DNA from: a virus
IMG/VR virus record: IMGVR_UViG_3300009034_000202
Span: 1-24,488 of that record
DNA length: 24,488 nucleotides
Reading direction: 5' to 3' (one strand)
The first letter of the stretch is position 1. Every line of letters begins with the position of its first letter. Shown piece after piece: positions 199 through 23,721 of the stretch. Made by a program: the position numbers and the translations under genes. A model generated the notes under the pieces. The model was given only the letters and a program-made list of their open reading frames with translations, did not search any database and was not told where the DNA came from.

Positions 199-230
199 CT
201 ATTCACTTTTCAATTAACCCTGCGGAGGGC

Positions 231-1838
231 TTATAACATCGTAGCTTCTGTTAAACCCGTGAGCTTAACTGCCCGAGGATCGGTGGGGGCTATGAGGTTA
301 TAGTACCAGAACGGAGCCTCCAATAAATCTTGAGGCCGACCAGATGCTCCCACTACTGTGGCATCGGTACTACGAGAAACCATAAATACCCCGGAAAGTC
401 CACCAAGCGGAGCCAAAAATTCAATTTCCGGCCCCATACTGGCTTCCATTCCGCCAAGTCTCGGAGGACTAAATCTCTGGATATTATCCCCACCAAACTT
501 CATCGCATACAAAGTCTTACTCAAGCACATCGGACTCATAATCCACTCGTAAGTTCGTCCACCGAACTCATACGAAATCTGAGACCAACCGCCCTTAAAG
601 CTCAAGGCTTTACCAGTACGCTCATAATTCTGTCTGTTGTTATACAGACCGGGCTGTTGTAGCCATTTCAACTGAACGCCCTGCGTAGTAATAACTGTAT
701 CCAATGTCTCACCCGGATAAGCATCCAGATACCCACCGATATAACCGTTAATTATATTATCAGTAAGTGGAGCATTCACGGCCTTGACTTGAGACTTAAA
801 CTGTGGATATATACCCAAATCAAGGGCCACACCCTCGGCAGCCCCACCTAAAATGTATCCAGACCCTTTAATCCAGTCATTGATTCCCCAACTAAGCTGG
901 GGTCGATTACTGACACGACTCGAATGAGCCGCCACAATCCAATCATCCGCTGCCGGTATGACTTTGAAAGCATCACTACCATCTGCCGGAGTCGTTACCT
1001 CAAAATGAGCATCCACACCAGTCACCGAATTAATGGCCTTGACATTTATGGTTTTGCCAAGATAATCAACGCCGGTAATAACGAGTATAACATAAGACTC
1101 GTCCGTATGCGTATAATTACGCACATCCGTTCCATCGGTGTCAGTACCTTCCCGGATTACGGCAGTACCACTATTGGCAACTAAATCAATTCGCATACCT
1201 TGACGGAAATTTGCGATTCGACCATACTCTTCATTAATAGTAATCTTACCATACGGTTCAGTTACCGCACCGGTCTGTTCTATGGCTGAAATTCTTCCGA
1301 GAACTTGATTTACACCAGACGAAGAATTTGTCGCACTATAAGAAAAAAAGCTGGAAGCCTCATAAATCGCTTTCAACTTCGCCACAGCCTTCATATCCCG
1401 AGCCACCTTCTTAATCTGGGCGGCATTCAACAATTCAGCCTGTTTCCAAGCAGCCGGAATACTAAAGTTCCCCACAACCTTATGCAGAACAAGCTCCCTC
1501 TTCATATCGCCCATGTGAGGCGATTCCGAGGCTTTTGGGAAGATTGACAAACCAGAGGCCAGAGTCGCTACCGTCTGGTCTAACCGCTGAATCATCCCCC
1601 CATCAATGGTCTCCATTGTCGGGCCAAGTGGATCAGCCGATTCAATCAAACCAGCCACGCCGGTTTCGTAAAGGTGAATTACTTTATATCCTCGACCGAC
1701 ACCTTCCTGCTTTTTGACTCCCAACGCTGTCCGCTTAATCTTATCGAACACGGGAGCTATCTGGGGGCCAGCCTCGGTAATCATCATTGGAAGTTCCTCT
1801 CTCACGAGGTTATCCAATGAACCTATTGCTTGTGCCAT
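231..1838 (-). CDS. Probable major capsid protein
   Basis: This 535-residue protein is probably the main shell subunit of the head. The call rests mainly on context: it directly follows a scaffold-like gene and the portal gene and is followed by a strong terminator, the usual arrangement for this highly expressed gene. The N-terminal region starts MAQAIGSLDNLVREELP and resembles the helical start of large capsid proteins; the rest is a mixed alpha/beta chain without signal peptide or membrane segment. At 535 residues it is longer than the usual 300-400 of HK97-fold capsids, so an inserted domain is likely. The ATG has AAGGGAT upstream. I see no catalytic motifs. A different large head protein is the main alternative. 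Confidence 0.75.
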   Translation of the reverse strand: MAQAIGSLDNLVREELPMMITEAGPQIAPVFDKIKRTALGVKKQEGVGRGYKVIHLYETGVAGLIESADPLGPTMETIDGGMIQRLDQTVATLASGLSIFPKASESPHMGDMKRELVLHKVVGNFSIPAAWKQAELLNAAQIKKVARDMKAVAKLKAIYEASSFFSYSATNSSSGVNQVLGRISAIEQTGAVTEPYGKITINEEYGRIANFRQGMRIDLVANSGTAVIREGTDTDGTDVRNYTHTDESYVILVITGVDYLGKTINVKAINSVTGVDAHFEVTTPADGSDAFKVIPAADDWIVAAHSSRVSNRPQLSWGINDWIKGSGYILGGAAEGVALDLGIYPQFKSQVKAVNAPLTDNIINGYIGGYLDAYPGETLDTVITTQGVQLKWLQQPGLYNNRQNYERTGKALSFKGGWSQISYEFGGRTYEWIMSPMCLSKTLYAMKFGGDNIQRFSPPRLGGMEASMGPEIEFLAPLGGLSGVFMVSRSTDATVVGASGRPQDLLEAPFWYYNLIAPTDPRAVKLTGLTEATML

Positions 1839-1907
1839 TGTTCTATCCCTTAACTAAATACATTTACAGTAATATGCAGTTAGTTGAGGGCTTCAATCAT
1901 CGAATTC

Positions 1908-2786
1908 CTACTTCATTGTCCGGGCAGCCTTAACTGCCTTTTGAAGATACCTTGCAATAAGATTCTTCTCTTGGTCATCCTCTGTTGAAGGAATTCGCTT
2001 AATTGGTTCGTCAGCTTGGATTACAGATGAAAGTCCCTCACCCGGAGCCAGGCCCAAAACAATGGGTTGCTGGTTGGATTTCTTTGGGATACCCAACTTT
2101 TTCAACTGCGACCGCACCCTCTGTACCGTCGCACTAACAAGCTCGGCTCCAAACGGTTTTCCGTTCTGAATCTTCGTCAGAACATCCTCAGCTACCATAT
2201 TTTTCACTTCAGCAAGAACTTCGTCTTTGTCCTCGCCTACTATCATTTTACCAATTATCTCATCTTTGTCAACCGCTTTGTCCGATATTTCTCGAATTTC
2301 TTTCTTGGCATCGCTGACGTGCCTCTGCTGCGAAAATTCCAAAATTGCTTTAACCTCCGCAGGAGTAGCTCCCATTTGCTTTTCAAATTCGGTATTGAAA
2401 TCTGAAACAGTGGTTTTTTTACCCGCTTTCTGCGGAGGTTCGTTCTCATCCTTGAGATATTGCATAAACTCAGCAGGTTCTATCCCCAACAAACCGGCCA
2501 ATTCCCGCACATCAGCCTCGGATGGATTATCATGGCCTTCAGAAATAGCTTCCACGAGAGTTCCAATTCTTATCCCTCGTTCTGCGGTTTTTGTAGCTGC
2601 GGCAGCTTCTTGAAATCTCTTGTCGGCCCCCGATGCTTTTGAGGCCCGTTCCTTTAGTTCCTCAAGGGTCAATGCGACATCTTCTCCGTCCACCTTAATG
2701 GTGTGAGTTTCAACTTTCTTTTCCTCTTGTTTCTCTTCTTGCTTTTCTTCCTGCTTCTGTTCTTCTTGTTTTTCTTCTTCTGGCAT
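1908..2786 (-). CDS. Head scaffold protein
   Basis: This 292-residue protein probably forms the temporary core on which the capsid assembles. The first 30 residues are almost only E, K and Q in KQEE repeats. They are followed by a motif around residues 31-50 (HTIKVDGEDVALTLEELKE) typical of phage scaffold and capsid-assembly proteins. The remainder is charged and predicted helical, ending in a basic segment (QKAVKAARTMK) that could contact the capsid protein. It sits between portal and capsid genes, as scaffolds normally do. Its ATG has AAAGGTAG upstream. Two copies of the iterated CTGCGGAG octamer lie inside it, in opposite orientations and different reading frames (encoding PAE and PPQ). 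Confidence 0.75.
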   Translation of the reverse strand: MPEEEKQEEQKQEEKQEEKQEEKKVETHTIKVDGEDVALTLEELKERASKASGADKRFQEAAAATKTAERGIRIGTLVEAISEGHDNPSEADVRELAGLLGIEPAEFMQYLKDENEPPQKAGKKTTVSDFNTEFEKQMGATPAEVKAILEFSQQRHVSDAKKEIREISDKAVDKDEIIGKMIVGEDKDEVLAEVKNMVAEDVLTKIQNGKPFGAELVSATVQRVRSQLKKLGIPKKSNQQPIVLGLAPGEGLSSVIQADEPIKRIPSTEDDQEKNLIARYLQKAVKAARTMK

Positions 2787-2835
2787 TTTTCTACCTTTCT
2801 TAAAAGTTTATATACCTGCTCCGCCACCCATCATT

Positions 2836-4665
2836 TCACCCTGCGGAGGTTGTTCTAACTCCATTGCTGCCGAATCTTCCATAGTTTCCATTCCTTCTGG
2901 TAAAATTCAGATTTTCGAGTTTGGCTCGACGATAATTTTGCCAAGCAACTTCATTGCCCACTGGAATGTCCAACCCCTTTTCTCGAACTTGGAAACTAAA
3001 TTCATTAAGAGTAATTCTTTGCCCTTCAAGAGCCTCTTTCAATTCCAGCTTTTGTTGTTCTTTTGAGATAGGAACTTCCGAAGCCACATTAATGTTCACT
3101 TCATCGGGGGATGGAATAGCATTTTTGGCAAGATTAATTTCTCCAGTCTCCATATCGAAAATGATACCAGCCAGAGAATCATCAAGATTATTGATGCTGA
3201 CGACTTTTTCCCCCGGCCAATTATCTCGGCAAATTCCTAACATAGAACGATAGACCCCCGATATTGCTTCGGCTACATTTTTGGCTGTAGGAGACAGAGG
3301 AATACCACTTGTTTCATATAACATCCCGAGACCTGATGCCGAATCCACTCGTCCAGGAGCACCACCTTTCAACATTTCTGTCGGTTGATTTGATACTTTA
3401 TCCATCAAACTCCCTGCAACCATAGCCCCATCTATTTGAGGTTTTGTCATTGCCGCAGGTTGTATCTGAAATGGTTTTTGTTCTGGGGCAGTATAATCAA
3501 TTTCATATACTAATCTTTTTATACCATCTTGACCTCTATGAGCCTCTGGAGGGGTTCCTATTCCGGCAGGCCACATCACCAATCCATATAAGTCATAATC
3601 TGATATGGACTGAAAGAGACTACTAAGACTGTATTCTGCCTCAGTATTCAAAGGAATCAACTGGTCAATAAATGAACGACCATAAAATCCGCCAACAATG
3701 ACATCCCGTGCAATTTTCACAGGCATATAGTATTTGCTCTGGGAATGGTCATAGCGATACAACTGATTTAGTTTCTCATAAGAACCCGCAAAAATAAGAT
3801 ACTCTGCCAAATATCCATCTGTTGTTTCAGTCCAGACCTCAACAAGCAGAGTGACATCGGTTTGTGTTTTATCTTTTTTAGTATGCCGTCCTTTCCATTG
3901 GGTTTCAACCTGACTTTGCCCACTCCTAATATAGAAACCTCCTCCACTATGAGTAAGAGAAGCAGTTCCCTGAAATCTGGATGACACATCGGCAGGCAAA
4001 TCACCAAAAGGAACTTTCACACTATCCATTCCTTTGTAGATTTTTGACCTCTTGCCCGGTGTTATTGAAAGACCTTTTACATAATCAGCGGGGACATATC
4101 TTAATCGTATCAAACCCCGCACATCCGATGGAGTAGATACATCTATTGGAATAGGTATCAATTCCCAAGGATTGATTACTTCAATCCCAATACTATCCAT
4201 TCCTTCTACCCATAACCCAAACCCAATCGTTCCATAATGAAGTAACGGCGGGAAAGCATTCAGAGCCAACTTAGAAACCTTTTCTTGCGGAAATGCCGAA
4301 TCCAGAACTACCTGAGCCGTACTTGCTTTCCTTAATCCATCAAGACTAACTCCTCGTCTTGATACAGCCGGAGCCAGATTTATTGTCAACAATCTTCCGA
4401 GTTGAGCCTGATATTTTGCAACAATATCCTCATACCGAAACTTTAGAACCCCTGATCCATCCAGATAAGACACATTCAGAGTCCCGCTTCCATAGTTGAT
4501 ATTCGAGAAATTGCGAATCCCCCTCATATAGAAATGATTAATCCACCAATTAATTGAAAGAGGATTCATCTTGGACTTGCCAGCAGAAATCAAGTATTGA
4601 AAAATCTGCTCAACTTGCGGTTTATTCTCTGTAGTATTGGGAGGGAGATTGAACTTATATCCCAT
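2836..4665 (-). CDS. Portal protein, with an alternative-frame C-terminus
   Basis: This 609-residue protein fits the portal, the dodecameric ring through which DNA enters the head, by size and by position between terminase and scaffold. The N-terminal third (NWWINHFYMRGIRNFSNINY, then a beta-rich region) and the long charged helical C-terminal part fit a portal; no diagnostic catalytic motif exists. The ATG overlaps the preceding stop as TGATG. The last 23 residues in this frame are basic and atypical. From about 2905 the +1 frame instead reads an acidic tail (PEGMETMEDSAAMELEQ) ending in MMGGGAGI at a TAA at 2808, which looks more like a genuine portal end and leaves only 21 bases before the scaffold gene. 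This suggests an indel at the TTTT at 2902-2905 or frameshifting. Confidence 0.75.
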   Translation of the reverse strand: MGYKFNLPPNTTENKPQVEQIFQYLISAGKSKMNPLSINWWINHFYMRGIRNFSNINYGSGTLNVSYLDGSGVLKFRYEDIVAKYQAQLGRLLTINLAPAVSRRGVSLDGLRKASTAQVVLDSAFPQEKVSKLALNAFPPLLHYGTIGFGLWVEGMDSIGIEVINPWELIPIPIDVSTPSDVRGLIRLRYVPADYVKGLSITPGKRSKIYKGMDSVKVPFGDLPADVSSRFQGTASLTHSGGGFYIRSGQSQVETQWKGRHTKKDKTQTDVTLLVEVWTETTDGYLAEYLIFAGSYEKLNQLYRYDHSQSKYYMPVKIARDVIVGGFYGRSFIDQLIPLNTEAEYSLSSLFQSISDYDLYGLVMWPAGIGTPPEAHRGQDGIKRLVYEIDYTAPEQKPFQIQPAAMTKPQIDGAMVAGSLMDKVSNQPTEMLKGGAPGRVDSASGLGMLYETSGIPLSPTAKNVAEAISGVYRSMLGICRDNWPGEKVVSINNLDDSLAGIIFDMETGEINLAKNAIPSPDEVNINVASEVPISKEQQKLELKEALEGQRITLNEFSFQVREKGLDIPVGNEVAWQNYRRAKLENLNFTRRNGNYGRFGSNGVRTTSAG

Positions 4666-4943
4666 CAGCGGACTCCAATTTCCATCGTATAGTTAGTATT
4701 TTTTGGCTTATCCTCCTTTTTCTTCCCATTGGCAATTCCTTTAAGTTTCCCCTGCGGAGGTTTAACTGAAGCAACCAAAGCCCGTAATGCCTCGGGCTTT
4801 GCCTCTTTCCCCGCCAGAAAAATGAGGAGTTGTTTATTTATAAGTGTAACCTGCCCAACAACATTGAATAATAATGCCAAGAGACCGCAGGATATACATC
4901 CAAATATCCCTAATAGAATCAAACAACCAGTTTCAATAGACAT
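4665..4943 (-). CDS. Small membrane protein between terminase and portal
   Basis: A 92-residue protein with one strongly hydrophobic segment at about residues 7-29 (CLILLGIFGCISCGLLALLF) and a basic soluble tail rich in Lys. The predicted topology is a single-pass inner-membrane protein. The ATG follows a run containing AAGGAAG. The stop shares a base with the portal start (TGATG), indicating translational coupling. A near-consensus promoter lies just upstream. The function is not recognised; its place in the head operon does not make it a holin by itself. Confidence 0.65.
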   Translation of the reverse strand: MSIETGCLILLGIFGCISCGLLALLFNVVGQVTLINKQLLIFLAGKEAKPEALRALVASVKPPQGKLKGIANGKKKEDKPKNTNYTMEIGVR

Positions 4944-4969
4944 AAAAACTTCCTTTCTTTATATATTAA

Positions 4970-4997
4970 ATTATACCAAAAACTCAATTTTTGTCAA
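4970..4997 (-). promoter_or_regulatory. Sigma70-type promoter for portal/head genes
   Basis: The minus strand carries TTGACA (plus 4992-4997), 16 bases, then TATAAT (plus 4970-4975): a full consensus pair. Initiation would fall near 4963, about 20 bases before the membrane-protein ATG. The 4998-5076 gap toward the terminase stop holds a 7-bp AT-rich hairpin (ATATTCT/AGAATAT, 5026-5043) with no T-run. Confidence 0.8.
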
Positions 4998-5076: not shown

Positions 5077-6924
5077 TCATCCAACTATAGTTCTTTGGCC
5101 ACGAATGACGCGGCGGTTATTTGGATCGATGGCAGATTTACGAGCATTCTGACTCAAGACATCAAGCATCTCCCCTGTAATTTCAGTGGAGGAAACACCC
5201 GACAACAATGGCATCCCTTTAACAAGAGGCAAATTTCTACGAATACGTTCCAACAAACTCGGCTTGCCTTTTTCTTTAACAAATTTCCCGCCTCGATTCT
5301 TGACAACAAATTGACTCATTGAGAGTGTATCAACAGCATCATCGTGGGGAAGAAGAGCCAAATCTGGGGTGAAATCCTCTGTCTGTTGATATAGTTGGTC
5401 AAATGGCCATTTTCCTGCAAGGTGAGCCGGATATTTTATCTTGCCCGGACGGAATCTCCACTCCATACCACATATTCGGTTGCTTTTGGTTACACGGGCG
5501 GGATATGTAATTGGAAAAACTCTTGCTCTCCAAGGTTGTGAGACCTTCTCTTCCATCTCGTTGATATATTCCTGCACAGCCTCCGCAAAACTCATCTGGA
5601 TACTTACGGCTTCTATTCCAAGTACGCGAGGTCTCCAAGCTAATCCTTTCTCGTAAATCAAACGCAAAAGTGTTGCATCCTTGGCTCGACCCATCCACAT
5701 ATCCAAAATCCATAATGTATTTGTAGTGTCAAATCCAAGAATCATAATACAGGAATAGTCATTGTATTGAGACATTCCACTGCCATAATCAAACAGCAGA
5801 ATTCGATACATTGGTAATACAATTTCTCGGAATGGTTTCTCAAAATCTTTATAAACCCTACGACCCGGCTCCATATAACGCTCTGACCATTTTATCAATC
5901 CTGTATGAGCCAATGGATTATTCCAATCAAATTCCCCTTCGACAGAATACTCGTTCTTGCGAGGGTCAATCACTAAGATACGGTCTTGTTCTGAAATAGG
6001 ATTGTTAAGATACTCAGCGGCAAAAGCCGATTCGCCGATTTCTTCTTTGCGAGCTTCAAGCACTTCTTGAGGCCATTTCTCAGGCCACAAGACATACACT
6101 TTTTTAGGATCATCTTTATCGTAGGCTATTGCTTTCAAGACCTTCCGATTCCAGAAATCAAATCGGGGGTCATCACTCGTCGTGGCGTGATAAAGAAAAG
6201 ACCGCCGATTAATCAAAGTTCCAGTCCAAAAAATAGATGAACCAGATTCAAGCATAGGAATTATCTGGCGGAACATAATCATCTCAAACTTTTCAATCAC
6301 AGCTTGAGCAGCGGCTTGAGAATCGGAATCAGGATCATTCTCGGGGTCATCAAGGAAGAATACTCTTGGTCTGCCCCCACGCTTTTTCCCCATCACACTA
6401 AGCCCTTTGATAATCGCCCCATTCATCAAACTTAATTGATGGTGATTCCAAATCTTCCGTCCCCTCGGTGGTTTCATTTCCCCGAAATCCTGAAGTATCA
6501 ATTCATTCTCAACAAATTGTTGTATGAGTTTGTCAAACCGTTCCTCAACTAATCTATCCGTTGCTAATCCAATCGTCATTTCATAATGTGGTCTGGTCAG
6601 GGCAAGTAACAGGGGAGCTTCAAGAGCTATCACAGTCGATTTAGCTGACCCCCTTGGAGCACCTTCTACATTTCTACCATATGTTCCCAAATCGTGAATC
6701 ATCTTATAGTGAAAAGGAGGGGACTCCTCGAAACCGTTTTTATAGAACAGTTTCCCCGCCCCAGCAAGATAACACCTGCGGAAGAAATCCCAAGCCACTA
6801 CCAAATCAAAAGCAGTCGATTGATTATACAGAACAGCCAATCTTGCCTGTTTCTGCCCATCAAACGACAACTTCTCATAATCCCTCGGCAGAGGCCAAAT
6901 AGGATATGGTCTCTTAATCCACAT
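5077..6924 (-). CDS. terL: Terminase large subunit (DNA-packaging ATPase/nuclease)
   Basis: This 615-residue protein is the motor that pumps DNA into the prohead and cuts concatemers. The ATPase half has a Walker A at residues 88-97 (GAPRGSAKST) and a Walker B at about 188-195 (VFFLDDPE). The nuclease half has the expected acidic residues: D379 in LLFDYGSG, E438 in LGIEAVS, and a final cluster HDDAVDTLSM at 527-536. All key residues are present, so it should be active. The gene overlaps the upstream radical-SAM-like gene by 11 bases, which places it in the same transcript. The length is normal to slightly long for the family. Confidence 0.95.
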   Translation of the reverse strand: MWIKRPYPIWPLPRDYEKLSFDGQKQARLAVLYNQSTAFDLVVAWDFFRRCYLAGAGKLFYKNGFEESPPFHYKMIHDLGTYGRNVEGAPRGSAKSTVIALEAPLLLALTRPHYEMTIGLATDRLVEERFDKLIQQFVENELILQDFGEMKPPRGRKIWNHHQLSLMNGAIIKGLSVMGKKRGGRPRVFFLDDPENDPDSDSQAAAQAVIEKFEMIMFRQIIPMLESGSSIFWTGTLINRRSFLYHATTSDDPRFDFWNRKVLKAIAYDKDDPKKVYVLWPEKWPQEVLEARKEEIGESAFAAEYLNNPISEQDRILVIDPRKNEYSVEGEFDWNNPLAHTGLIKWSERYMEPGRRVYKDFEKPFREIVLPMYRILLFDYGSGMSQYNDYSCIMILGFDTTNTLWILDMWMGRAKDATLLRLIYEKGLAWRPRVLGIEAVSIQMSFAEAVQEYINEMEEKVSQPWRARVFPITYPARVTKSNRICGMEWRFRPGKIKYPAHLAGKWPFDQLYQQTEDFTPDLALLPHDDAVDTLSMSQFVVKNRGGKFVKEKGKPSLLERIRRNLPLVKGMPLLSGVSSTEITGEMLDVLSQNARKSAIDPNNRRVIRGQRTIVG

Positions 6925-7639
6925 TCATTCGTCCTCGAGTAGCAAAATATTCCCGCAAACAATTACCACAAAATCGACAATGGGTATCCCCAAGTTCTCC
7001 TTCTATCTTACCACAAGAATGAACCCATTTATTATTCTCATATTGTTGCATTACTTCCCGCCATGCGACTGTTGTGATTGCACTATAGGAATTAAGAGTT
7101 CGTTTTCGGAATATATAATTCTTCCGATGATTTTCTGGAATTCTATCTGCCGAATTGAAATAAGCCATAAAAGTTAGTACAATAGGAACATCTCTTTGAG
7201 AATAATATCTGATACATTTTTTTTGAAGTTCTATGTTCCAAGTATTAGCCCGAAAACGAACAAACATTAAATTCTTGGGGACATCCCGACTTTGAATTTT
7301 ATAAAAATCAATATCTGTCATTTTCCCTGGATTCACAGTGAGAACGACTGGAGCCTCAAAATCAAGATTGAGAATTGCTGTATTGTAGAATTTTAGAGGG
7401 AATTGATGTGTTCTCATTAAAACGGTCGGTTTATCCACATTGGAGTCATTGCCATCATTAATCCTCACTACTTGGAAATCTGTTGGTTCTGGAATAAAAG
7501 GAAGATTCTCTTCCAGAGGTTCCAAATAGGATCGACCGGATTGGAAGAAACAATCCTCGCAATTATTTGGACAAGTTCCTGTTTGTGGAATGGCACAAAC
7601 AATCCCACTTCCTTTTGTTTTAGGATTCTCTTTTTTCAT
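6914..7639 (-). CDS. Radical-SAM-like iron-sulfur protein
   Basis: This 241-residue protein has a C-X3-C-X2-C motif near the N-terminus (C23, C27, C30 in TCPNNCEDCFF), the signature that binds the 4Fe-4S cluster in radical SAM enzymes. The following strand/helix pattern (VVLTVNPGKM, NLMFVRFRANTWN, VPIVLTFMAYFN) fits a partial TIM barrel. The C-terminal part has a second cysteine set, C-X11-C-X2-C-X2-C (GDTHCRFCGNCLREYF), which may hold another cluster or zinc. At 241 residues it is compact for the superfamily. Its substrate cannot be told from sequence. It overlaps the gene before it by 20 bases and terminase by 11. A zinc protein with fortuitous spacing is the alternative. Confidence 0.65.
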   Translation of the reverse strand: MKKENPKTKGSGIVCAIPQTGTCPNNCEDCFFQSGRSYLEPLEENLPFIPEPTDFQVVRINDGNDSNVDKPTVLMRTHQFPLKFYNTAILNLDFEAPVVLTVNPGKMTDIDFYKIQSRDVPKNLMFVRFRANTWNIELQKKCIRYYSQRDVPIVLTFMAYFNSADRIPENHRKNYIFRKRTLNSYSAITTVAWREVMQQYENNKWVHSCGKIEGELGDTHCRFCGNCLREYFATRGRMNVD

Positions 7640-8552
7640 TTTTCAATTCCTCAATGGCGGGGAGAGTTCTGACGACATCAAAGAAGGCGATGGTTGTGGC
7701 TATCCCCGCACACCACGCCGAGTTGCCTTTATTCGACCCCATTACGATTTTCAGGCTTGGCCAAATACCCTCGATGTAGCCGGGCTGATTCAGAAGAGCG
7801 AAAACCATCGCCGGTATCTCTGCTCGTTCTGCAAAATCCCAAGTCGTAGTCGAAGGCGTTGTCATCGGCTCCGCACACAATGTCACGATATGAAAAGCTA
7901 CGGTGGCCAGCACAAATCCATCCTCCAGAATGTACTTTCTCAGGGCCGTAAGTTCAATATCCTCCGCAGGGGGTATTTTATGTAAATCCCCAAGTTCTTG
8001 AAATATCTCTTTTTGTATTTGGCGTTCTTCTGGAGTCTGAGGCGGTAATTCTATAGGTTTGATTTCTGTAGGGTAATTCCCATCAGAATCAAAATTATCA
8101 TTTTCTTTCATATTTTCAAAAGCCCGCTCAGATGCGATTTTACTTTTCTGCGGAGGAGATTCCCGGGAAGAGGTCTTGGTCACAGGTTGGGGGTCGGGTT
8201 TTGATACAGGGATTATCGGACTTTTCGGAGTTGTTATTGTTGCTTTCGGATAATTCTCCACCGGTCGTAATACTGTTTCCGTTGGAAAATTGTCTCGGAG
8301 TCTCTCCTCCGTCTGACGATTCAGTTCCTCCAGAGTCAGCATTTCCGAGGGGGAAGGCTCGTCGGGTATCTCTGATAGATTCTGTGGAATCGGAGTTAAT
8401 ATTGCATTCTCCGGTAATTCGCTCAGGTCGGCTTTCTTGGGGTTGGCTCTGTCCCCTATCGCTTTCTCTATCGGATTCGGTTCGGGTTTCTTTGTGAAAT
8501 CCGCTCTTGCATTTCCTATCCAGTTTGTTTTGGGTTTTTTCGGTTTTGTCAT
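7620..8552 (-). CDS. Unknown protein with Pro-rich disordered N-terminus
   Basis: A 310-residue protein of unknown function. Residues 1 to about 190 are rich in Pro, Lys, Glu and Ser and probably disordered. Residues from about 200 (DIELTALRKYILEDGFVLAT) onward look folded, with hydrophobic helices and a moderately hydrophobic stretch around SAWCAGIATTIAFFDVVRTL. The ATG at 8552 has AAGGA eight bases upstream. It shares 413 bases with the preceding gene in another frame. Position before terminase would allow a packaging role, but no helix-turn-helix is visible. It carries two CTGCGGAG octamers, encoding PPQ and PAE. Confidence 0.65.
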   Translation of the reverse strand: MTKPKKPKTNWIGNARADFTKKPEPNPIEKAIGDRANPKKADLSELPENAILTPIPQNLSEIPDEPSPSEMLTLEELNRQTEERLRDNFPTETVLRPVENYPKATITTPKSPIIPVSKPDPQPVTKTSSRESPPQKSKIASERAFENMKENDNFDSDGNYPTEIKPIELPPQTPEERQIQKEIFQELGDLHKIPPAEDIELTALRKYILEDGFVLATVAFHIVTLCAEPMTTPSTTTWDFAERAEIPAMVFALLNQPGYIEGIWPSLKIVMGSNKGNSAWCAGIATTIAFFDVVRTLPAIEELKNEKRES

Positions 8553-8916
8553 TTTGAGATTCCTTAACTTTTGATTCTACTTGTTTTGGAGGATTGAGAA
8601 TTCCGGCGATACGTTTCGCGGAAAATGTAGTTTGACCTCCTTGAGCATTAGGAACAGTTTGAGAAACTTTTGCAGTGTATCCTGAGGACTCTGCGGCTTC
8701 CCGTAGCAATTCCCGTAAGTGTTTGAGTGCTTTGAATTTGATAGAAAGATTCGCATTTTGTTTTGCTAAAACAAGTGTTTCCTTTATTTCAATCGAGTAC
8801 GTCCAACCCAAATCTCTAAAAATATTTATGATGATAGACGCATCATTGAAACTTGTTATAGCAGCCAGCACATCATCAGGATTTGGCTGTTCAGATTTTT
8901 CAATTTCATCAGACAT
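8140..8916 (-). CDS. Unknown protein, possible small terminase subunit, overlapping the next gene
   Basis: A 258-residue reading frame. Residues 1 to about 110 look folded and mostly helical (SIEIKETLVLAKQNANLSIK, KALKHLRELLREAAESSGY), the type of helical segment seen in phage small terminase subunits, which fits the position upstream of terL. This is inference; no family motif is certain. The rest, from about residue 120, is low-complexity Ser/Glu/Asn/Arg sequence that overlaps the next gene by 413 bases. The N-terminal part must be coding, or a 364-base gap would remain. How far the C-terminal overlap is real is uncertain. The ATG is preceded by GGTGGTAAG. Confidence 0.6.
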   Translation of the reverse strand: MSDEIEKSEQPNPDDVLAAITSFNDASIIINIFRDLGWTYSIEIKETLVLAKQNANLSIKFKALKHLRELLREAAESSGYTAKVSQTVPNAQGGQTTFSAKRIAGILNPPKQVESKVKESQNDKTEKTQNKLDRKCKSGFHKETRTESDRESDRGQSQPQESRPERITGECNINSDSTESIRDTRRAFPLGNADSGGTESSDGGETPRQFSNGNSITTGGELSESNNNNSEKSDNPCIKTRPPTCDQDLFPGISSAEK

Positions 8917-9062: not shown

Positions 9063-9413
9063 CTATACATATACAATAAAGGTTGGTTTTTTTGCTTTCT
9101 TTGCTTTTTCGATTGTGTCGGCAGTTCCACGAGATTCCCCATCCCAAAAAGCTAATATCATATCACAATTATCAACTATCGTTTGGTTGCGTATGAATCC
9201 AGCAGACTTGCCATATTTATCCCAATCTGCATAGAAAACTTTGCATGAAATGTCATTATTCTCGGCAAAATTTTCTCCTAATAAGTCAGCCCCTTTAGCC
9301 CCCCCAGATATAATTTCTGTAATATAATCAAGAGGACAGAGAGAATCATAAATAAATCCTGCCAACTGTTCATAACTATTAAATGTACGACTGCCTACGA
9401 TTGCTAATCTCAC
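9063..9413 (-). CDS. SLOG-family (DUF2493-like) nucleotide-binding protein
   Basis: A 116-residue protein with the hallmarks of a small Rossmann-like SLOG protein: an N-terminal strand followed by VGSRTF, a glycine loop SGGAKGADLLGENFA around residues 36-50, and FWDGESRGT near residue 90. Relatives are thought to bind nucleotides or nucleotide-derived signals and are common in phages; a specific activity cannot be stated. The start is GTG, overlapping the previous stop as GTGA, so translation is coupled. Length is typical for the family. Confidence 0.85.
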   Translation of the reverse strand: MRLAIVGSRTFNSYEQLAGFIYDSLCPLDYITEIISGGAKGADLLGENFAENNDISCKVFYADWDKYGKSAGFIRNQTIVDNCDMILAFWDGESRGTADTIEKAKKAKKPTFIVYV

Positions 9414-9826
9414 TTTTCTTTCCTTTCTGCGGATGGATGTGTAATTAATTTTTTCACCATCGAACTATCTCGTCCGGTCGCCGCCGCCATTTCAGCGAGT
9501 ATTCGAGGGGATTTTGCTTCCTCGATGATTTTGTTTGTAACTTCGACGAGAAAGCCCTTTTCTCGGAGTTTCTGATTGGCTTTGGCTGTACTCGCTGGGA
9601 ATATAAAACCGGGGCCACCGGGTCGGCTGAGTACGAACATAATTCTATTGAAGGTCGAGAGAGAAAAGAAAACCTCACTACCAATATATATTGGTTGAAT
9701 ATGTAAAGCCTTGAGATATTTCAGGGCCACGAGACGGGATACATCAAAGGTTGTCTCCAAATGCTTTAACTCAACAAGCTCACCCCCGCCAAAATCATAA
9801 GTTTTAGGTAGATTCATTTTTCCCAT
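9410..9826 (-). CDS. Helix-turn-helix-like protein of unknown role
   Basis: A 138-residue protein. Residues 17-50 (LVELKHLETTFDVSRLVALKYLKALHIQPIYIG, in part) have the pattern of a winged or MerR/excisionase-like HTH, with a helix pair followed by a short hairpin. The C-terminal half is charged and helical with AAATGRDSSMVKKLI. It may be a DNA-binding regulator or a terminase-type recognition protein; neither is proven. A promoter (TTGAAA-16-TATAAT) lies directly upstream, so it probably heads the transcript that carries the late genes. It couples to the SLOG gene by GTGA. Confidence 0.6.
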   Translation of the reverse strand: MGKMNLPKTYDFGGGELVELKHLETTFDVSRLVALKYLKALHIQPIYIGSEVFFSLSTFNRIMFVLSRPGGPGFIFPASTAKANQKLREKGFLVEVTNKIIEEAKSPRILAEMAAATGRDSSMVKKLITHPSAERKEK

Positions 9827-10543: not shown

Positions 10544-11158
10544 TTACTTTTTTTGGATTATCCAAAAATAACTATGGACTTTTCTAAGATGTCTTTGGGT
10601 TCTTGATTTGACATACCATTTATTAGGGATGACTAAGATAGCTAAATCTTTCACATAAAATCCCGATTCGATTGCCCATTGCCAAACAAAACAATGCGTC
10701 ATTGTTGTTTTTGAATCTGTATAGTCTTGACATTTGAAAACAAGGATGCCTTTCGGTTTAAGAATTCGGTAAAATTCTTTTAAGGAATCTTTATACATCT
10801 TTTCAAGTGCTTCAAAATTCCAAAACATTCCAAAGCGAACTTCTGTTGTTTGTTTTCCGACTCGTTCTTTCCCTTGGCCTCCATGAGGGCCGTTCTTTCC
10901 TCCAAAGCAAAAAGGAGGGTCAAACATAATTGAATTTATAGAAGAATCGGGGATTGGTAATTTAGTGGAATTAGCATATTGAACATCTTCCCGTTGAGGA
11001 TTTATATCAAATTTTAGAGTTGGTTCTTGTAATCCTTTATAGAATTTACCTAATGAAAAACAAGGGTCTAAGTCAAAATGGTCTGACTCGATATGTAAAT
11101 CCAGAATATTCTGAATGACTTCTTGATTAGTTGTTCCAGCACTCTTAATACAACTCAT
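10544..11158 (-). CDS. DNA methyltransferase of the DPP[FY] type
   Basis: A 204-residue SAM-dependent methyltransferase. The catalytic motif IV reads FDPPF at residues 79-83, the form of enzymes that methylate exocyclic amino groups (N6-adenine or N4-cytosine). It is followed by a typical region leading to a helix and strand (YRILKPKGILVFKCQD, residues about 127-142). The short length and lack of a recognisable target domain suggest a solitary phage methylase; target site unknown. LDPCFSLGKFYKGL near residue 30 resembles a SAM-binding start. It has its own strong promoter and AAAGGAACC ribosome site. Possible roles are evasion of host restriction or regulation of its own DNA; a guess. Confidence 0.8.
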   Translation of the reverse strand: MSCIKSAGTTNQEVIQNILDLHIESDHFDLDPCFSLGKFYKGLQEPTLKFDINPQREDVQYANSTKLPIPDSSINSIMFDPPFCFGGKNGPHGGQGKERVGKQTTEVRFGMFWNFEALEKMYKDSLKEFYRILKPKGILVFKCQDYTDSKTTMTHCFVWQWAIESGFYVKDLAILVIPNKWYVKSRTQRHLRKVHSYFWIIQKK

Positions 11159-11180: not shown

Positions 11181-11209
11181 ATTTTACCATATCCTCCGCA
11201 GGGAGTCAA
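11181..11209 (-). promoter_or_regulatory. Promoter of the methyltransferase gene with the octamer in its spacer
   Basis: Minus strand TTGACT (plus 11204-11209), a 17-base spacer, TAAAAT (plus 11181-11186). The spacer contains the iterated motif CCTGCGGAGG. Predicted initiation is about 15 bases before the ribosome site of the gene starting at 11158. Confidence 0.75.
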
Positions 11210-13484: not shown

Positions 13485-13553
13485 GGAGCGGGGTGGGAAT
13501 CGAACCCACGACCTGTTACCGGTTTACCGCTCTGCCAACTGAGCTACCCGCCC
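13485..13553 (-). tRNA. tRNA-like gene with shortened anticodon arm
   Basis: The minus strand has a tRNA acceptor stem (GGGCGGG with CCCGCTC, one G-U), a standard D arm (GCTC, loop AGTTGGCA, GAGC) and a perfect T arm (GTGGG, TTCGATT, CCCAC). A G at 13554 can pair with the C at the discriminator position (13485), as in tRNA-His. Between the D arm and the AGGTC variable loop there are only 14 bases where 18 are normal, and no 5-bp anticodon stem can be formed. No anticodon is assigned. CCA is not encoded. It has its own promoter and a T-run just after. Confidence 0.65.
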
Positions 13554-13592: not shown

Positions 13593-13668
13593 GGGATTTT
13601 TTGGCATTTTGAAAATATTTTTTGGGTACCTTTATCGGACGGATACCTTTGGGGATTTTGGTTATTGG

Positions 13669-13686
13669 ACTGCGTAAATTTCCACT
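13669..13686 (+). repeat. 18-base direct repeat, copy 1
   Basis: ACTGCGTAAATTTCCACT, identical to 18337-18354 in the same orientation, 4,668 bases away. The two copies bracket the mini-gene cluster. Confidence 0.85.
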
Positions 13687-13792
13687 CGGAATCTAAAATT
13701 GATTTCTTGCGGGGGAGGTCTTTGACCAACATTATCGGACTCACGCTAGGGGCCGACGGGGGGGTCTCCCTCCGCAGGATCAATCCTGATTC

Positions 13793-13862: not shown

Positions 13863-14092
13863 ATCCAGTGTGTTTTGGTGAGAACTGGTAAGTCCTATAA
13901 CCATTGGCGGTTAGTAGTCGGACATTTGGTTATTCAGACAACGATTATTGGACTTATCCTGCGGAGGTAAAAGGAGGAGGCCCCGACTATTGGTGGGAGG
14001 TTGCACCAGCCGAGGCCTTGGTGGAGAAGGAAATGAAACGAATTGTTTTTTATGATTTTGGGGCTATAACCACAAACCCTATATTCTAATAG

Positions 14093-17651: not shown

Positions 17652-17683
17652 CCTCCGCAGACCAGTGGTTATTCCTGCGGAGG
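17652..17683. repeat. Inverted pair of the iterated octamer
   Basis: CCTCCGCAG (17652-17660) and CTGCGGAGG (17675-17683) are perfect inverse copies separated by 14 bases and can form a 9-bp hairpin. There is no T-run. It lies about 50 bases upstream of promoter P1. Confidence 0.8.
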
Positions 17684-17816: not shown

Positions 17817-17954
17817 TCAATCTTGATAATATCTAATAACAAACCGGGCATAACTCCGCAGGTTTTCCCTCAATTCCTCTTTGGTAATCCTGCCCTGCAA
17901 ATATAACCTATTGAGTCTGGTCTGTTTCGCTTCGATTAGTTTTACTGTTTTCAT
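17817..17954 (-). CDS. 45-residue basic protein
   Basis: The ATG at 17954 overlaps the previous stop as ATGA and has GGGAGG upstream. It encodes 45 residues: MKTVKLIEAKQTRLNRLYLQ, then a helix GRITKEELRENLRSYARF, typical of a short helical hairpin with a possible nucleic-acid-binding face. It carries one CTGCGGAG octamer. A terminator follows 22 bases later. Confidence 0.65.
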   Translation of the reverse strand: MKTVKLIEAKQTRLNRLYLQGRITKEELRENLRSYARFVIRYYQD

Positions 17955-18212: not shown

Positions 18213-18218
18213 CTAATC

Positions 18219-18356
18219 GGCGTTGTCTGCCTACGGCCAAAAATGTTATCGGTCGTAGCAGTTATAGGACTACATCTCCGCAGAATCCTTATCGGACGCC
18301 AAGAGTTATAGGACTAATCCCCACCATAGTCCCGATACTGCGTAAATTTCCACTTG
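18219..18356 (+). ncRNA. Candidate noncoding transcript (segment B)
   Basis: Downstream of the plus-strand promoter lie a stem-loop (CTACGGCC 18231-18238 with GGTCGTAG 18251-18258, one G-U), four TTATNGG[AT]C repeats (18246, 18262, 18289, 18306), one CTCCGCAG octamer (18276) and the 18-base repeat at 18337. No reading frame with a ribosome site is present. The 3' end is unknown. It could be a small RNA, an antisense leader or a repeat used as a DNA site. Confidence 0.45.
18337..18354 (+). repeat. 18-base direct repeat, copy 2
   Basis: ACTGCGTAAATTTCCACT, identical to 13669-13686. It ends three bases before the stop of the 18357 gene. Confidence 0.85.
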
Positions 18357-18729: not shown

Positions 18730-18740
18730 AATTTCCCTTT

Positions 18741-19649: not shown

Positions 19650-19650
19650 A

Positions 19651-20211
19651 TCAATTTCCCCTAAATTTGTTATAACATTCCAAGAAAAGACGTTCAGCTT
19701 GGTCAGGAGTCCAAGGAACAATCAATTCTTTCACAGGATTGCTGTCACCTATACTCCAGATTGAAAAATCGGGCATTTTAGGCATTAAGTCTCGAATCTC
19801 GGTGGCCATCATCCGAATATCCGCTCTTTTGACCTCCGCAGAATAGGTAAAGTCAACTCCCAACGCTTCTCCAATTACGGCCTGAATTTCTCGTTCAAAT
19901 CCCGCAACTGTTTGACGATAACCAGTAGTTGGGTCTTTAACCCAAAGAAGTTTTTTCCAAGGTTTAGCTATATCCCCAATATAAGCCTCATCCGCATCGT
20001 GTAGTAATTTCACTAATGGATCACCGGGTAAATCCGAATTCTCCGCCATCAATACACAATGTTGGGCAACAGAATAAAATTCTCGAGTATGTCCTGTATA
20101 TCTACATTGATACGCCAGAGAATGAGCAATATCCTCTATGCAAACCATCTTCGGTTTAGGATTTAACAAATCGAAAACCTTTCCTGTATATGTTACTATA
20201 TTATTTGCCAT
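19651..20211 (-). CDS. HD-domain phosphohydrolase (YfbR-like)
   Basis: A 186-residue HD protein. The metal-binding residues are visible: H51 in SVAQHCVLMA, H71-D72 in LLHDADEAYIGD, and a later Asp within IRDLMPKMPD. The pattern HTREFYSVAQH...LLHDADEAYIGDIAKP is that of phage and bacterial dNMP 5'-nucleotidases, which remove phosphate from deoxynucleotides. Probably acts in the cytoplasm on nucleotide pools. It overlaps the membrane-protein gene by 11 bases. Confidence 0.85.
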   Translation of the reverse strand: MANNIVTYTGKVFDLLNPKPKMVCIEDIAHSLAYQCRYTGHTREFYSVAQHCVLMAENSDLPGDPLVKLLHDADEAYIGDIAKPWKKLLWVKDPTTGYRQTVAGFEREIQAVIGEALGVDFTYSAEVKRADIRMMATEIRDLMPKMPDFSIWSIGDSNPVKELIVPWTPDQAERLFLECYNKFRGN

Positions 20212-20476: not shown

Positions 20477-21045
20477 TCACCCTCCTTTAGCTGCTCTTGG
20501 TAAAGAATAATCGCTAATAACGAATATATAGCATTGTCCATCAATGTATCAATTACTGATTCATTTTTAACCATTAACTGCCCGCTCTTTATAAATTCTT
20601 CGAGCCGAGACCACTTATCTTGCAATCGAACTAACACCCCTAAAAATGGAGTGAGATTTAATCGAACACATGCCCGAAGATTTTTAAGGGGGTCTTTTGT
20701 ACCGGAATAATCGTGACTCTTACGGGAATGCAAGTTCGCCATTTGTTCAAGCAATTTATAGAAATCAGGATGTCCAAGTCTCTTGATCTCCTGTGTATCC
20801 TTTCCGTGACCAATTCGCACACCCCCCCCGGAGGTTTCTGTATTTTTAGCAAGATACAATGCCTCCGCTTTTTCCGCATCGGCCTTATTTTTATAAAGAC
20901 CTCCACTTTCTTTTGTAGCCTTTCCAACAGAACCATCCGGCAAAACATAACCAGTTAGAGGGGATGAATCCGCTAAAATATCCACAACCCACGGCCTATT
21001 TTTATTATAATTAAATCTTCGTATTTTTGTCAATTTCTCTATCAT
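20455..21045 (-). CDS. DUF1599/Nmad1-like protein
   Basis: A 196-residue protein. Residues from about 105 (EQMANLHSRKSHDYSGTKDP) onward match the pattern of DUF1599/Nmad1, a helical domain related to MazG-type nucleotide proteins and found in phages with modified DNA: HDYSG, then LVRLQDKWSRLEEF, and DTLMDNAIYSLLAIILYQE. The first 90 residues are a separate basic domain (RRFNYNKNRPWVVDILADSS). The start at 21045 is preferred to 21060 because GGAGGA lies between. ATGA overlap with the upstream gene. It may modify or monitor nucleotides. Confidence 0.7.
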   Translation of the reverse strand: MIEKLTKIRRFNYNKNRPWVVDILADSSPLTGYVLPDGSVGKATKESGGLYKNKADAEKAEALYLAKNTETSGGGVRIGHGKDTQEIKRLGHPDFYKLLEQMANLHSRKSHDYSGTKDPLKNLRACVRLNLTPFLGVLVRLQDKWSRLEEFIKSGQLMVKNESVIDTLMDNAIYSLLAIILYQEQLKEGELSGKTS

Positions 21046-21323
21046 TTTAATTCCTCCCAAGATAAATTGATTGGTCGTACCGTATGTTTAATCCAATTCC
21101 AAGAAATATTCCTTTTAAGATTCAATTCTTTTGCTTTTTGTCTTGCTAATGCTCTGGTTCTAAAGAAAAAAGGTCGCCCTGAAAGACAATCTGTAATAAA
21201 AAGAATCAAATTCCTCCCTGTTACTCCTACTCCACATGGCCCAATCCATTCATGTCGATTCCAAGAATCCTCTGAATTCATTCGCACTTTATAATAAATT
21301 GCCCATACCCGCCTTGTTTTCAT
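21042..21323 (-). CDS. 93-residue hypothetical protein
   Basis: The start at 21323 overlaps the previous stop as ATGA; a start at 21386 is less likely. The chain (MKTRRVWAIYYKVRMNSEDS, then NRHEWIGPCGVGVTGRNLIL) is beta-rich with a basic C-terminal helix (ALARQKAKELNLKRN). Unrecognised; the fold might be a small nucleic-acid-binding barrel. Coupled on both sides. Confidence 0.65.
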   Translation of the reverse strand: MKTRRVWAIYYKVRMNSEDSWNRHEWIGPCGVGVTGRNLILFITDCLSGRPFFFRTRALARQKAKELNLKRNISWNWIKHTVRPINLSWEELK

Positions 21324-21757
21324 TTTAATTCTTCTTTCCCCAACAAAACTGCCGCTGTAAGTTTTGGTAATTCTAAATAATAACAAACAAATCCAGGAGC
21401 TTGATATTTCCTAAAAATCCCCACTCCCTCAATCCTTCCCGGCTTTTTCGCCTTCAGTACCGTCTCAGGTAAATACACCTTAAAACCCCCGGGAAGAGAA
21501 TACTGTGGAACCGATCCAAGCCATATAATTTTTCTATCATCCATTTGAGAGATTTGACTGGCAATCTTAAAAGTCGTATTCCACTGATTTGGATGCACAA
21601 CAGTCACAAACAGAAATCCATTAAATCCCACGTATTGCCTTCTTACAAGAATTGGTTGGTCATTGAGAAACAATCTTTTAGCCAGTAAATAATGACCTCT
21701 TGGTTTCCCTTGCGAGAAATGAGGGCAAATCGAAATAGGAATAGTTACTGGTTCCAT
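21320..21757 (-). CDS. 145-residue hypothetical protein
   Basis: The ATG at 21757 has CGGGAAT upstream. The protein is largely beta (ILVRRQYVGFNGFLFVTVVH, KIIWLGSVPQYSLPGGFKVY) with Pro and Gly turns. No known family is recognised. A structured stretch (21773-21856) lies immediately before it. Its stop overlaps the next gene as ATGA. Confidence 0.6.
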   Translation of the reverse strand: MEPVTIPISICPHFSQGKPRGHYLLAKRLFLNDQPILVRRQYVGFNGFLFVTVVHPNQWNTTFKIASQISQMDDRKIIWLGSVPQYSLPGGFKVYLPETVLKAKKPGRIEGVGIFRKYQAPGFVCYYLELPKLTAAVLLGKEELK

Positions 21758-21772
21758 AATATAATTCCCGAA

Positions 21773-21856
21773 AATGCTGGCGGGCAGGGAAGATACTTTT
21801 ACTCTGGGGATAGCCCTGTTTTCCCACTAAATCCAGCTTTCGCCACCGCCAGCATT
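21773..21856 (-). other. Long-range hairpin element
   Basis: AATGCTGGCGG (21773-21783) and CCGCCAGCATT (21846-21856) are a perfect 11-bp inverse pair with a 62-base loop that can itself pair (CAGGG with CCCTG). On the minus strand the stem is followed by TTTTC, then the next gene. It may be a terminator-type or cis-regulatory RNA element. The gap 21757-21938 also holds a 13-codon frame of no clear meaning beginning at an ATG near 21914. Confidence 0.55.
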
Positions 21857-21938
21857 ATTCACTTTTCAAAAAGGGACAGGCTTTATTTTCGTCCCATACC
21901 TGCCCCTAATCCGGTATTAATCATCCTCTGACACTTTC

Positions 21939-22493
21939 TTAAAGTGGTACATCTTCGACCAGAACCTCGGTGGGAACCTCAGCCGCTGCTTCTTCCGGAG
22001 TTACATAGACACCATCTGGCTGAATCTCTGCTCCAAAAGGCTCTACTGCGGAGGTTTCCGTAGTCGTGTTGATAACTTCTAAGATATAGCAGTTGGTGTA
22101 ATCTTTGCCATCTTTTCTGCTCCGAGATGTCCTGACTTTGACTCGGACAACGAGGCCGATAGATGCTTCGAGAATCGCATTGGCTTCTGCAAGGTCATTA
22201 ATATCTCTTCCGGCGAGAACCTTTATGGCTCCTTTTAGAATACCAAATACCTTGGAAGTGTAATAGCCAACTGTAAACTCTTCTCCGTTGAGTTTTTCAT
22301 CCTGAACATCTTCAATTCGGCCTTTGAGATTCCACCAGATCAAATCCTTGCCGTCTTTGGTGGACGTCCCTTTAGTCAACTTAACAAGGGACACGATATA
22401 CTCATTATCCGGGGGCATCCAATCACTGAAAATCTCCGCTTCTTTGTAGTCCTGATTGTGCTGTGCGAGCATCTGCTCAAAATTTAAGTCCAT
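21939..22493 (-). CDS. DUF669-like ssDNA-binding protein
   Basis: A 184-residue protein with the shape of DUF669 proteins: an N-terminal QMLAQHNQDYKEAEIFSDWM, then a beta barrel (NEYIVSLVKLTKGTSTKDGK, IWWNLKGRIEDV), a VRVKVRTSRSRKDGKDYTNC strand, and an acidic tail ending VLVEDVPL. The acidic tail is typical of single-strand DNA-binding proteins. It is commonly found next to Sak4-like ATPases, as here. The start at 22493 is chosen for AAAGGAA; 22508 is upstream of that site. Confidence 0.75.
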   Translation of the reverse strand: MDLNFEQMLAQHNQDYKEAEIFSDWMPPDNEYIVSLVKLTKGTSTKDGKDLIWWNLKGRIEDVQDEKLNGEEFTVGYYTSKVFGILKGAIKVLAGRDINDLAEANAILEASIGLVVRVKVRTSRSRKDGKDYTNCYILEVINTTTETSAVEPFGAEIQPDGVYVTPEEAAAEVPTEVLVEDVPL

Positions 22494-22534
22494 AACTGTT
22501 CCTTTCAAAATATATTGTTGTTTCTTTTATCACT

Positions 22535-22738
22535 TCAATCAATCAACGTGAAAGTGATAACATTCAATACAAAATCAATATCGGATACTTGGAATCGCAT
22601 CCCTAATAAAAGTTCTTCGGGGATTCCTCCTTTAGGGAACTCAGCTTGAAGTGGATCATCTCGGAAATACTTTCTTCTTCTATTCACTTCAAGTATCGCA
22701 AGTTTCTCTTTTTCTTTTTGTTTTGGAGATAAGCCCAT
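22535..22738 (-). CDS. 67-residue hypothetical protein
   Basis: The ATG at 22738 has AGGAGA upstream. The N-terminus is basic and helical (SPKQKEKEKLAILEVNRRRK), the rest beta-like (GMRFQVSDIDFVLNVITFTL). It sits between the recombinase and ssDNA-binding genes and is probably co-transcribed. No family is recognised. Confidence 0.65.
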   Translation of the reverse strand: MGLSPKQKEKEKLAILEVNRRRKYFRDDPLQAEFPKGGIPEELLLGMRFQVSDIDFVLNVITFTLID

Positions 22739-22755
22739 TTTAAGTCTCCTGAAAA

Positions 22756-23721
22756 TTACTTATTTTGTTTCTTTGCATTTGCAACTGCAACATTATAGTT
22801 TTTGACAAATATATCCCACGCATTGAGAAGAGGAATCTCAAACTTTCGATTCATCCCTGGAGCACCTCGACCCTTACCCTGCCGCTCCGCCGTTGTATAA
22901 GAATCAAGAAAATACTTAGAAGTCATTACTGTTCCACAAGGAACCTCAATAATCTGACCCCCCGGAAGTTTCCTTTTCTCTTTTTTCTCAATTTCCTTAT
23001 TGATACAATAAATCGTCAATTTGAATTCGCTTTTGTTTACAATCTGAGCAGCCATAGTTGGAAATACTGAGTCTCGGATAACAGTTCTTTCTTTGTTGGT
23101 AGAAGGATTAGTCTCTGTTTTAGTAGTCATGTGGCCAACGCAAGACCATACAAAACCAGCTTGTTCCAATTCCCGTAACCTTGACCAACACCGCTCCCGA
23201 ATCATAGCCCACCCATGCCCTTTGCTTCCAAATTCCGTAATATCATCAACGCCTTTTTCTATCTGCAGTTGAAGTTTAATCATCCCAACCCACTCATCTA
23301 CAGTATCGAGAGAAACTCGATGAACAACATGTTTACTGGTTTTACCCTCGTCAATGAGCTTTTGGGTAATCTGCATATAGCGGTTGTAATTTTCAATCGG
23401 AACTCTTAATGCCCTCGTGCCGACAATTCCCGAAGCCCCTCCATCGAAATCTAAAATCATATTGTCGGGAATACTCGATTCAAAAGTAGTCTTGCCCTCT
23501 CCACTTGGCCCGACAATCCACAGATTCAAATCCTCCGCAGGTTTAGGATCGTAGCCGGTTTGAACACCGAGTTTGGCCCAATCAGTTGGAATAACCGGCA
23601 CAGTATTAGGAATCGCAGGTAACACAATGTTGCTGCTTTTTGCGGGGTATAATTGACTCTGTGGAAATTTAGCCTTTGTAGTCTGAACCGCTTCTTGACT
23701 TGATATTTGCTCTATTGTCAT
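22756..23721 (-). CDS. Sak4/AAA_24-type recombination ATPase
   Basis: A 321-residue RecA-like ATPase. The Walker A is at residues 71-79 (GPSGEGKTT), followed by LDFDGG at about 90-95 and a LDTVDEW segment near 140 that is a likely Walker B region. Phage Sak4-type proteins have this layout and promote annealing or strand exchange with a partner ssDNA-binding protein, here the DUF669-like one downstream. The C-terminal half is mixed. The ATG has AAGGAG upstream and overlaps the previous stop as ATGA. Confidence 0.75.
   Translation of the reverse strand: MTIEQISSQEAVQTTKAKFPQSQLYPAKSSNIVLPAIPNTVPVIPTDWAKLGVQTGYDPKPAEDLNLWIVGPSGEGKTTFESSIPDNMILDFDGGASGIVGTRALRVPIENYNRYMQITQKLIDEGKTSKHVVHRVSLDTVDEWVGMIKLQLQIEKGVDDITEFGSKGHGWAMIRERCWSRLRELEQAGFVWSCVGHMTTKTETNPSTNKERTVIRDSVFPTMAAQIVNKSEFKLTIYCINKEIEKKEKRKLPGGQIIEVPCGTVMTSKYFLDSYTTAERQGKGRGAPGMNRKFEIPLLNAWDIFVKNYNVAVANAKKQNK

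Follow-up and report, generated by a model that had tools for sequence, protein, structure and literature searches.

An asymmetric nine-base word iterated on both strands in a family of uncultured phages: a candidate Chi-type signal

The window and its iterated word

The window analyzed here is a virus record of 24.5 kb (24,488 nucleotides) from IMG/VR (IMGVR_UViG_3300009034_000202). Its genes lie nearly all on the minus strand and include a large terminase, a Sak4-like annealing protein, an AAA_25 ATPase and an N6/N4-type methyltransferase. Throughout the window, from position 220 to 23533, the word CTGCGGAG occurs in exactly 17 copies, nine on the plus and eight on the minus strand (Table 1). 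Fifteen of these belong to the nonamer CTGCGGAGG, and ten to the full form CCTGCGGAGG. Together with the overlapping word CCTCCGCA, which is likewise present 17 times, CTGCGGAG ranks first among all 8-mers of the window.

Markov models of order 0, 2 and 3 give expected numbers of 0.4, 0.45 and 1.0 copies, respectively. An ordinary model of order 5-6 predicts 9.5-16.3 copies, because the motif copies themselves train the model. When models of order 5 and 6 were trained on related contigs in which the motif copies had been masked, they predicted 1.15 and 0.95 copies versus the 17 observed. Chance is rejected as an explanation.

No near relative of the window was found among 50,697 annotated phage records, where the best terminase matches were 22-28% identical. 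A search of IMG/VR with the terminase returned 20 loci with 77-89% identity, all of them, like the window, metagenomic contigs, and in the longer ones the motif is a leading word. The long relatives G002, G008, G009 and G013 (53-57 kb) and G012 (51 kb) carry 35-57 copies of the 9-mer, distributed over their whole length. More distant members of the family (G061, G060 and G055; roughly 50-65% protein identity, GC content 38-55%) carry it as well. The density is 0.7-1.1 per kb, or about one copy every 1.2 kb on either strand. Thus, the count and the balanced orientation described in the first-pass annotation (eight against nine there, nine plus and eight minus here) are borne out, and the word withstands both checks named there, namely a model of order 5-6 and a look at the rest of the phage genome, for which the related contigs of 50-57 kb were used.

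The exact form of the signal was determined in 508 kb of related phages with a GC content of 38-55%. The asymmetric 9-mer CTGCGGAGG is present in 380 copies, compared to 2.5 expected under an order-2 model. Among its single changes, only C1>T (45 vs 4.0) and A7>G (46 vs 2.5) are clearly enriched, while C4>T and changes in the last two bases are weakly enriched. The 9-mer is usually preceded by a pyrimidine and followed by A or T. The over-represented consensus, YTGCGGRGG, is short and non-palindromic.

Selection, orientation and spacing of the copies

In pairwise alignments of about 74% nucleotide identity, all eight bases were intact at 613 of 1161 homologous sites (53%). For all 8-mers in the same alignments this value was 11%, and it was again 11% for GC-matched 8-mers with a CpG. 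Where the encoded amino acid was unchanged, bases at 4-fold degenerate positions were identical in 85% of cases inside the motif versus 41% in the flanks, and every frame behaved alike. Individual sites keep their positions: 13 of 14 relatives retain the one at window position 2355, with its opposite-strand partner located 47, 66, 72 or 75 bp away in different phages, or farther, and the one at 4752 is intact in 12 of 16 relatives. Conserved positions and conserved 4-fold degenerate bases indicate that the motif is kept by selection on DNA rather than on protein, in agreement with what had been proposed from the window alone. Of all copies, 83% lie inside genes (138 in sense and 131 in antisense orientation), where they occupy all six reading registers and encode many different peptides (LRR, PAE, SAE, PPQ, TSA, FCGG). 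No preference for gene starts or gene ends was seen. Constraint on the protein is ruled out by the 4-fold degenerate sites, and codon bias by the six registers and the differing amino acids.

The copies could also have arisen as a mutational or structural by-product, for example from mobile mini-elements with CCTCCGCAG ends, from template switching between inverted copies or from codon bias. Divergent copies do resemble terminal inverted repeats. However, homologous sites that lack the motif differ from it mostly by substitution and not by insertion or deletion, and the conservation of 4-fold degenerate sites implies selection, so that we regard such an origin as highly improbable. The location of most copies in genes and their turnover by substitution likewise set the word apart from repetitive extragenic palindromes, bacterial interspersed mosaic elements (REP/BIME) and mobile mini-elements.

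The copies are not placed at random with respect to strand. In ten contigs, 198 of 295 neighboring copies are on opposite strands, compared to 150.8 +/- 8.5 for shuffled strands. Within 300 bp, 46 divergent pairs (CCTCCGCAG...CTGCGGAGG) were found where 20 were expected, versus 14 convergent pairs and 10-15 same-strand pairs per orientation. Since the genomes of the window's clade are related, these counts are not fully independent, and the distant phages are the better replicate. In these, there were 16 divergent pairs within 200 bp (6 expected) and four convergent ones. The window itself contains four close divergent pairs (Table 1). No helical phasing was apparent by eye in pair spacings of 22, 47, 72, 75, 93, 105 and 110 bp. 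Hairpins or terminators formed by paired copies on a single strand were rejected, because the spacings reach 500 bp and a hairpin could form from convergent copies just as well as from divergent ones.

Considering that the pairs are asymmetric and divergent, the motif could be the site of a phage-encoded protein that binds many sites and bridges two of them, similar to a stoperator or C1-operator system or to packaging and condensation proteins. The sharp 9-bp specificity and the conserved positions would suit such a protein, as would the excess of divergent pairs below 500 bp in near (51 vs 27 expected) and distant phages (32 vs 15), as a two-site bridging protein would give. In addition, a conserved small protein that looks helix-turn-helix-like is encoded near the terminase (window 9410-9826, and also in G061 and G055); it has no match in Pfam or NCBIfam. 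The stoperators of cluster A mycobacteriophages (PMC6550527) are comparable: these sites, too, are asymmetric, keep their positions and are spread throughout a phage genome of about 50 kb. However, among stoperators, such as those of L5, one orientation relative to transcription predominates, and the consensus depends on the repressor of each phage (PMC6550527), whereas the copies described here are mostly inside genes in equal orientations, and their consensus is constant across phages whose proteins are only 50-60% identical. The word is thus not a stoperator set in the sense of L5, and a phage-borne binding protein seems to us unlikely.

Copies on the same strand are evenly spaced. In five large contigs of the window's clade, the gaps between them have a coefficient of variation (CV) of 0.51-0.74, compared to 0.92-0.96 for random placement, with about 2.5 kb between copies on each strand. 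When both strands are pooled, the gaps are not regular. In three distant contigs, even spacing was found on the plus strand (CV 0.69-0.73) and not clearly on the minus strand. The roughly 2.5 kb between neighbors on one strand is of the order of an Okazaki fragment, and the strands are used equally, as might be seen if the word marked a strand-specific replication signal, e.g., preferred start sites of a primase or primosome on each template strand. However, we know of no primase that needs nine bases, and the motif is constant while the replicative helicase varies: the window and G002 have one of the AAA_25 type, whereas the sequences in G012 and G061 are different. A replication signal is therefore a very doubtful explanation. 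Strand alternation, divergent pairing and even same-strand spacing constitute an architecture absent from the first-pass annotation, and its divergent pairing is explained by none of Chi, HIP1 (highly iterated palindrome 1), uptake sequences and stoperators.

Unrelated siphophages, the host and a Chi-type reading

A second group of carriers consists of siphophages with a lambda-E-type capsid, a tape measure protein and a terminase of their own, for which no sequence relation to the window's family was detected. An initial scan for motif pairs returned mostly GC-rich or tandem-repeat matches, with the exception of L119, while stricter scans for divergent pairs were productive. Five siphophage contigs (L185, L193, L197, L223 and L311) contain 3-7 copies in 6-8 kb, compared to 0.07-0.14 expected in those modelled. 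L235, listed as L193/L235, is a further motif-bearing contig, and L234, which was found by capsid similarity alone, has three copies in 2.7 kb. In contrast, L236, with a capsid 68% identical, and L283 have zero copies, L210 has three in 20 kb, and in another 70 capsid relatives a total of 23 copies was counted where 68 are expected. At homologous positions, the word is kept in the motif-bearing siphophages and is absent from L236, where it is scrambled, and from L210. Members of both phage groups are found together in metagenomes 3300024265 and 3300009788.

Since unrelated siphophages carry the word while their close relatives lack it, the motif does not appear to follow phage ancestry, and the host is the simplest factor that it could follow instead. 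This distribution also argues against a phage-borne binding protein. It should be noted that the contigs of the siphophages are short, that their genes are all structural, and that most of them were found by the motif search itself (L234 by its capsid). This weighs against a host-linked signal, and the two phage groups might share a phage-borne binding protein after all.

The host was searched for in several ways. Alignment of the terminase against genome contigs yielded a single distant match, from Flavobacteriales (26% identity). In 41 genomes of the phylum to which this match belongs, Bacteroidota, the sole phylum sampled, there was no consistent enrichment of the motif. The tRNA gene of the window indicated no taxon, family models gave little host information for the phage proteins, and a literature search for the word itself returned nothing relevant. 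Thus, the suggestion made from the window alone, that the word is a host signature kept by the phage, is plausible in view of the siphophages and finds no echo in the Bacteroidota genomes.

The word could be a host genome signature of another kind, such as a methylation or mismatch-repair word or a DNA-uptake signal, copied by way of shared host DNA metabolism. Such a signature would also track something besides phage lineage. The uptake sequences of Neisseria and Haemophilus are similar to the word in that they have 9-10 bases, occur near once per kb with a more than 100-fold enrichment, lie on both strands and in part form inverted pairs. In contrast to these sequences, the word is found in apparently lytic phages, for which an uptake signal has no obvious benefit, shows even same-strand spacing and has no link to competence. 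The uptake-type comparison in the first-pass annotation was one of density only. About one copy per kb and a more than 100-fold enrichment are also the scale of HIP1 (approximately 1 per 1000 nt), and HIP1 and the alternate HIPs of cyanobacteria are, like our word, GC-rich and present in genes and gaps (PMC4390886). However, these HIPs are palindromes that track a matching methyltransferase (PMC4390886), whereas the word is asymmetric and the methyltransferases inspected differ among the phages (N6/N4 type in the window, another in G002, a C5-type sequence in G012). The likeness to HIP1 proposed earlier was therefore not upheld. In addition, even same-strand spacing is unexpected for a signal that is blind to orientation. 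We consider a signature of this kind improbable.

Selection on DNA, strand balance and even spacing within each strand would suit a machine that recognizes the word on one strand while travelling in a single direction. Chi is the established example for phages whose DNA has free ends or broken forks: it halts degradation by RecBCD-type enzymes and initiates recombination. By analogy, we tentatively favor the reading that a host machine recognizes CTGCGGAGG as a strand-specific signal in the DNA, most probably as a recombination hotspot of the Chi type. In this case, a host nuclease-helicase of the RecBCD/AddAB type would enter from a DNA end, halt degradation at CTGCGGAGG and load a recombinase. 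The phage would thereby be spared degradation and would recombine into concatemers, and the word would be retained because the phage relies on host end processing. The factor shared by the two phage groups would then be the host, the reader a directional enzyme that processes DNA ends, and the gain for the phage both the spared degradation and the concatemer-forming recombination.

Several observations are consistent with a Chi-type signal. Even spacing on the same strand, but not in the pooled copies, is expected if only one orientation counts per direction of travel, and thus agrees, if indirectly, with one-direction recognition by RecBCD/AddAB; balanced strands would suit a genome that is attacked from both ends. 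It was previously shown that phages with a recombinase and without a RecBCD inhibitor over-represent Chi (PMC3784561). The phages studied here encode the Sak4-like annealing protein, and no match to a Gam- or Abc2-like RecBCD inhibitor was found among the proteins scanned, which did not include every small open reading frame (ORF). Like known Chi sequences, CTGCGGAGG is G-rich toward its 3' end, and an additional CG is the main difference between it and the candidate Chi GCTGGAGG (PMC8022716), a loose resemblance only. In the first 50 kb of P1 we counted 27 Chi sites (0.54/kb), approximately 11 times the order-2 expectation and balanced between the strands. With P1 as a fair yardstick, a density of 0.7-1.1/kb would not be outlandish for Chi. 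Hence, the motif would have in common with E. coli Chi in phages (PMC3784561; P1 as counted here) a short, asymmetric, G-rich word, equal use of the strands, a similar density, and carriers that have a recombinase and no known RecBCD inhibitor.

Other observations weigh against a Chi-type signal. The word has nine bases, and its enrichment is about 150-fold, versus approximately 11-fold in P1 and 2-3-fold in lambdoids. The leading-strand polarity of Chi in E. coli is not seen, as the phage copies are balanced and alternate between the strands; this property may not apply to phages, since Chi is also balanced in P1. "Chi" is moreover an inferred label. Divergent pairs are strongly favored over convergent ones. 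By our own reasoning, a Chi model predicts no such preference, because the phasing between the sites of the two strands should have no effect on the expected resection gap. Chi therefore leaves the divergent preference unexplained, which makes room for a site-bridging protein or a machine that works outward. More speculatively, the functional unit might be the divergent nonamer pair itself, repeated every 2.5 kb or so and read outward in both directions by a host or otherwise shared machine. This would be a class of signal new to phages, beyond a new Chi; we think it rather unlikely.

Chi-type sequences are known experimentally in a handful of species, and most phages from metagenomes have no assigned host. 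If the word is linked to the host, it would act as a bar code by which unrelated uncultured phages could be assigned to one host, and it would point to a recombination signal, or another signal, of an uncultured host. The siphophage relatives with and without the word would then represent a natural experiment on host switching. The layout in divergent pairs is a puzzle beyond current Chi models.

Other features of the window and its relatives

The positions of all copies and of the terminase used as query for related phages are given in Table 1.

Table 1. Copies of CTGCGGAG and the large terminase gene in the window.
Feature	Position	Strand	Remarks
Copy 1	220..227	+	Full CCTGCGGAGG at 219-228; 3' of gene 231-1838
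Copy 2	2355..2362	-	Left arm of divergent pair with 2430; inside scaffold-like gene; oriented W 22127
Copy 3	2430..2437	+	Right arm of divergent pair 2355/2430 (75 bp)
Copy 4	2841..2848	+	Final codons of ORF 2836-4665
Copy 5	4752..4759	+	ORF 4665-4943; PPQ codons CCT CCG CAG
Copy 6	7962..7969	-	Left arm of divergent pair 7962/8148 (186 bp)
Copy 7	8148..8155	+	Right arm of divergent pair 7962/8148
Copy 8	11194..11201	-	Intergenic; upstream of methyltransferase gene 10544-11158
Copy 9	13770..13777	-	Left arm of divergent pair 13770/13959 (189 bp); noncoding candidate origin region
Copy 10	13959..13966	+	Right arm of divergent pair 13770/13959
Copy 11	17653..17660	-	Left arm of tightest divergent pair 17653/17675 (22 bp); intergenic
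Copy 12	17675..17682	+	Right arm of divergent pair 17653/17675
Copy 13	17854..17861	-	8-mer only: CTGCGGAGT
Copy 14	18276..18283	-	8-mer only: CTGCGGAGA; noncoding, among GTCCNATAA iterons
Copy 15	19834..19841	-	In gene 19651-20211, HD-domain-like by eye; no Pfam/NCBIfam match
Copy 16	22046..22053	+	In ORF 21939-22508
Copy 17	23533..23540	-	In Sak4-like gene 22756-23721
Large terminase	5077..6924	-	Query for related phages; no motif copy in the window's version

At 6914-7639 on the minus strand, a cysteine-rich protein of 241 amino acids (CPNNCEDC...HCRFCGNC) is encoded, without a match in family libraries or annotated phages. Two long ORFs on the same strand (7620-8552 and 8140-8916) share about 410 bp, which they read in different frames; the first of them is proline-rich, and the arrangement recurs in L180. 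Members of the phage family also have in common a YspA/SLOG-family protein (PF10686; 9063-9413, minus strand). A uracil-DNA glycosylase domain in G002 precedes a family A DNA polymerase in one protein of 861 amino acids (PF03167 + PF00476; L151:8760-11345, minus strand), and a similar gene is split across contig ends in G061.

The candidate origin region contains a tRNA-like gene (13485-13553, minus strand; Rfam RF00005, 47 bits) that was not called by ARAGORN, and another tRNA-like gene is located elsewhere in G002 (L151:2279-2346). A second iterated word, GTCCNATAA, occurs in the window on the minus strand, at 13632-13640, 13662-13670, 13732-13740, 13945-13953, 18262-18270, 18289-18297 and 18306-18314. 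As GTCCGATAA, it was counted 39 times in 324 kb, compared to 2.6 expected under an order-3 model. Its copies cluster in two noncoding regions of the window and of the long relatives, mostly in gene sense and beside conserved GC-rich blocks, and the word looks like the iterons of a replication origin.

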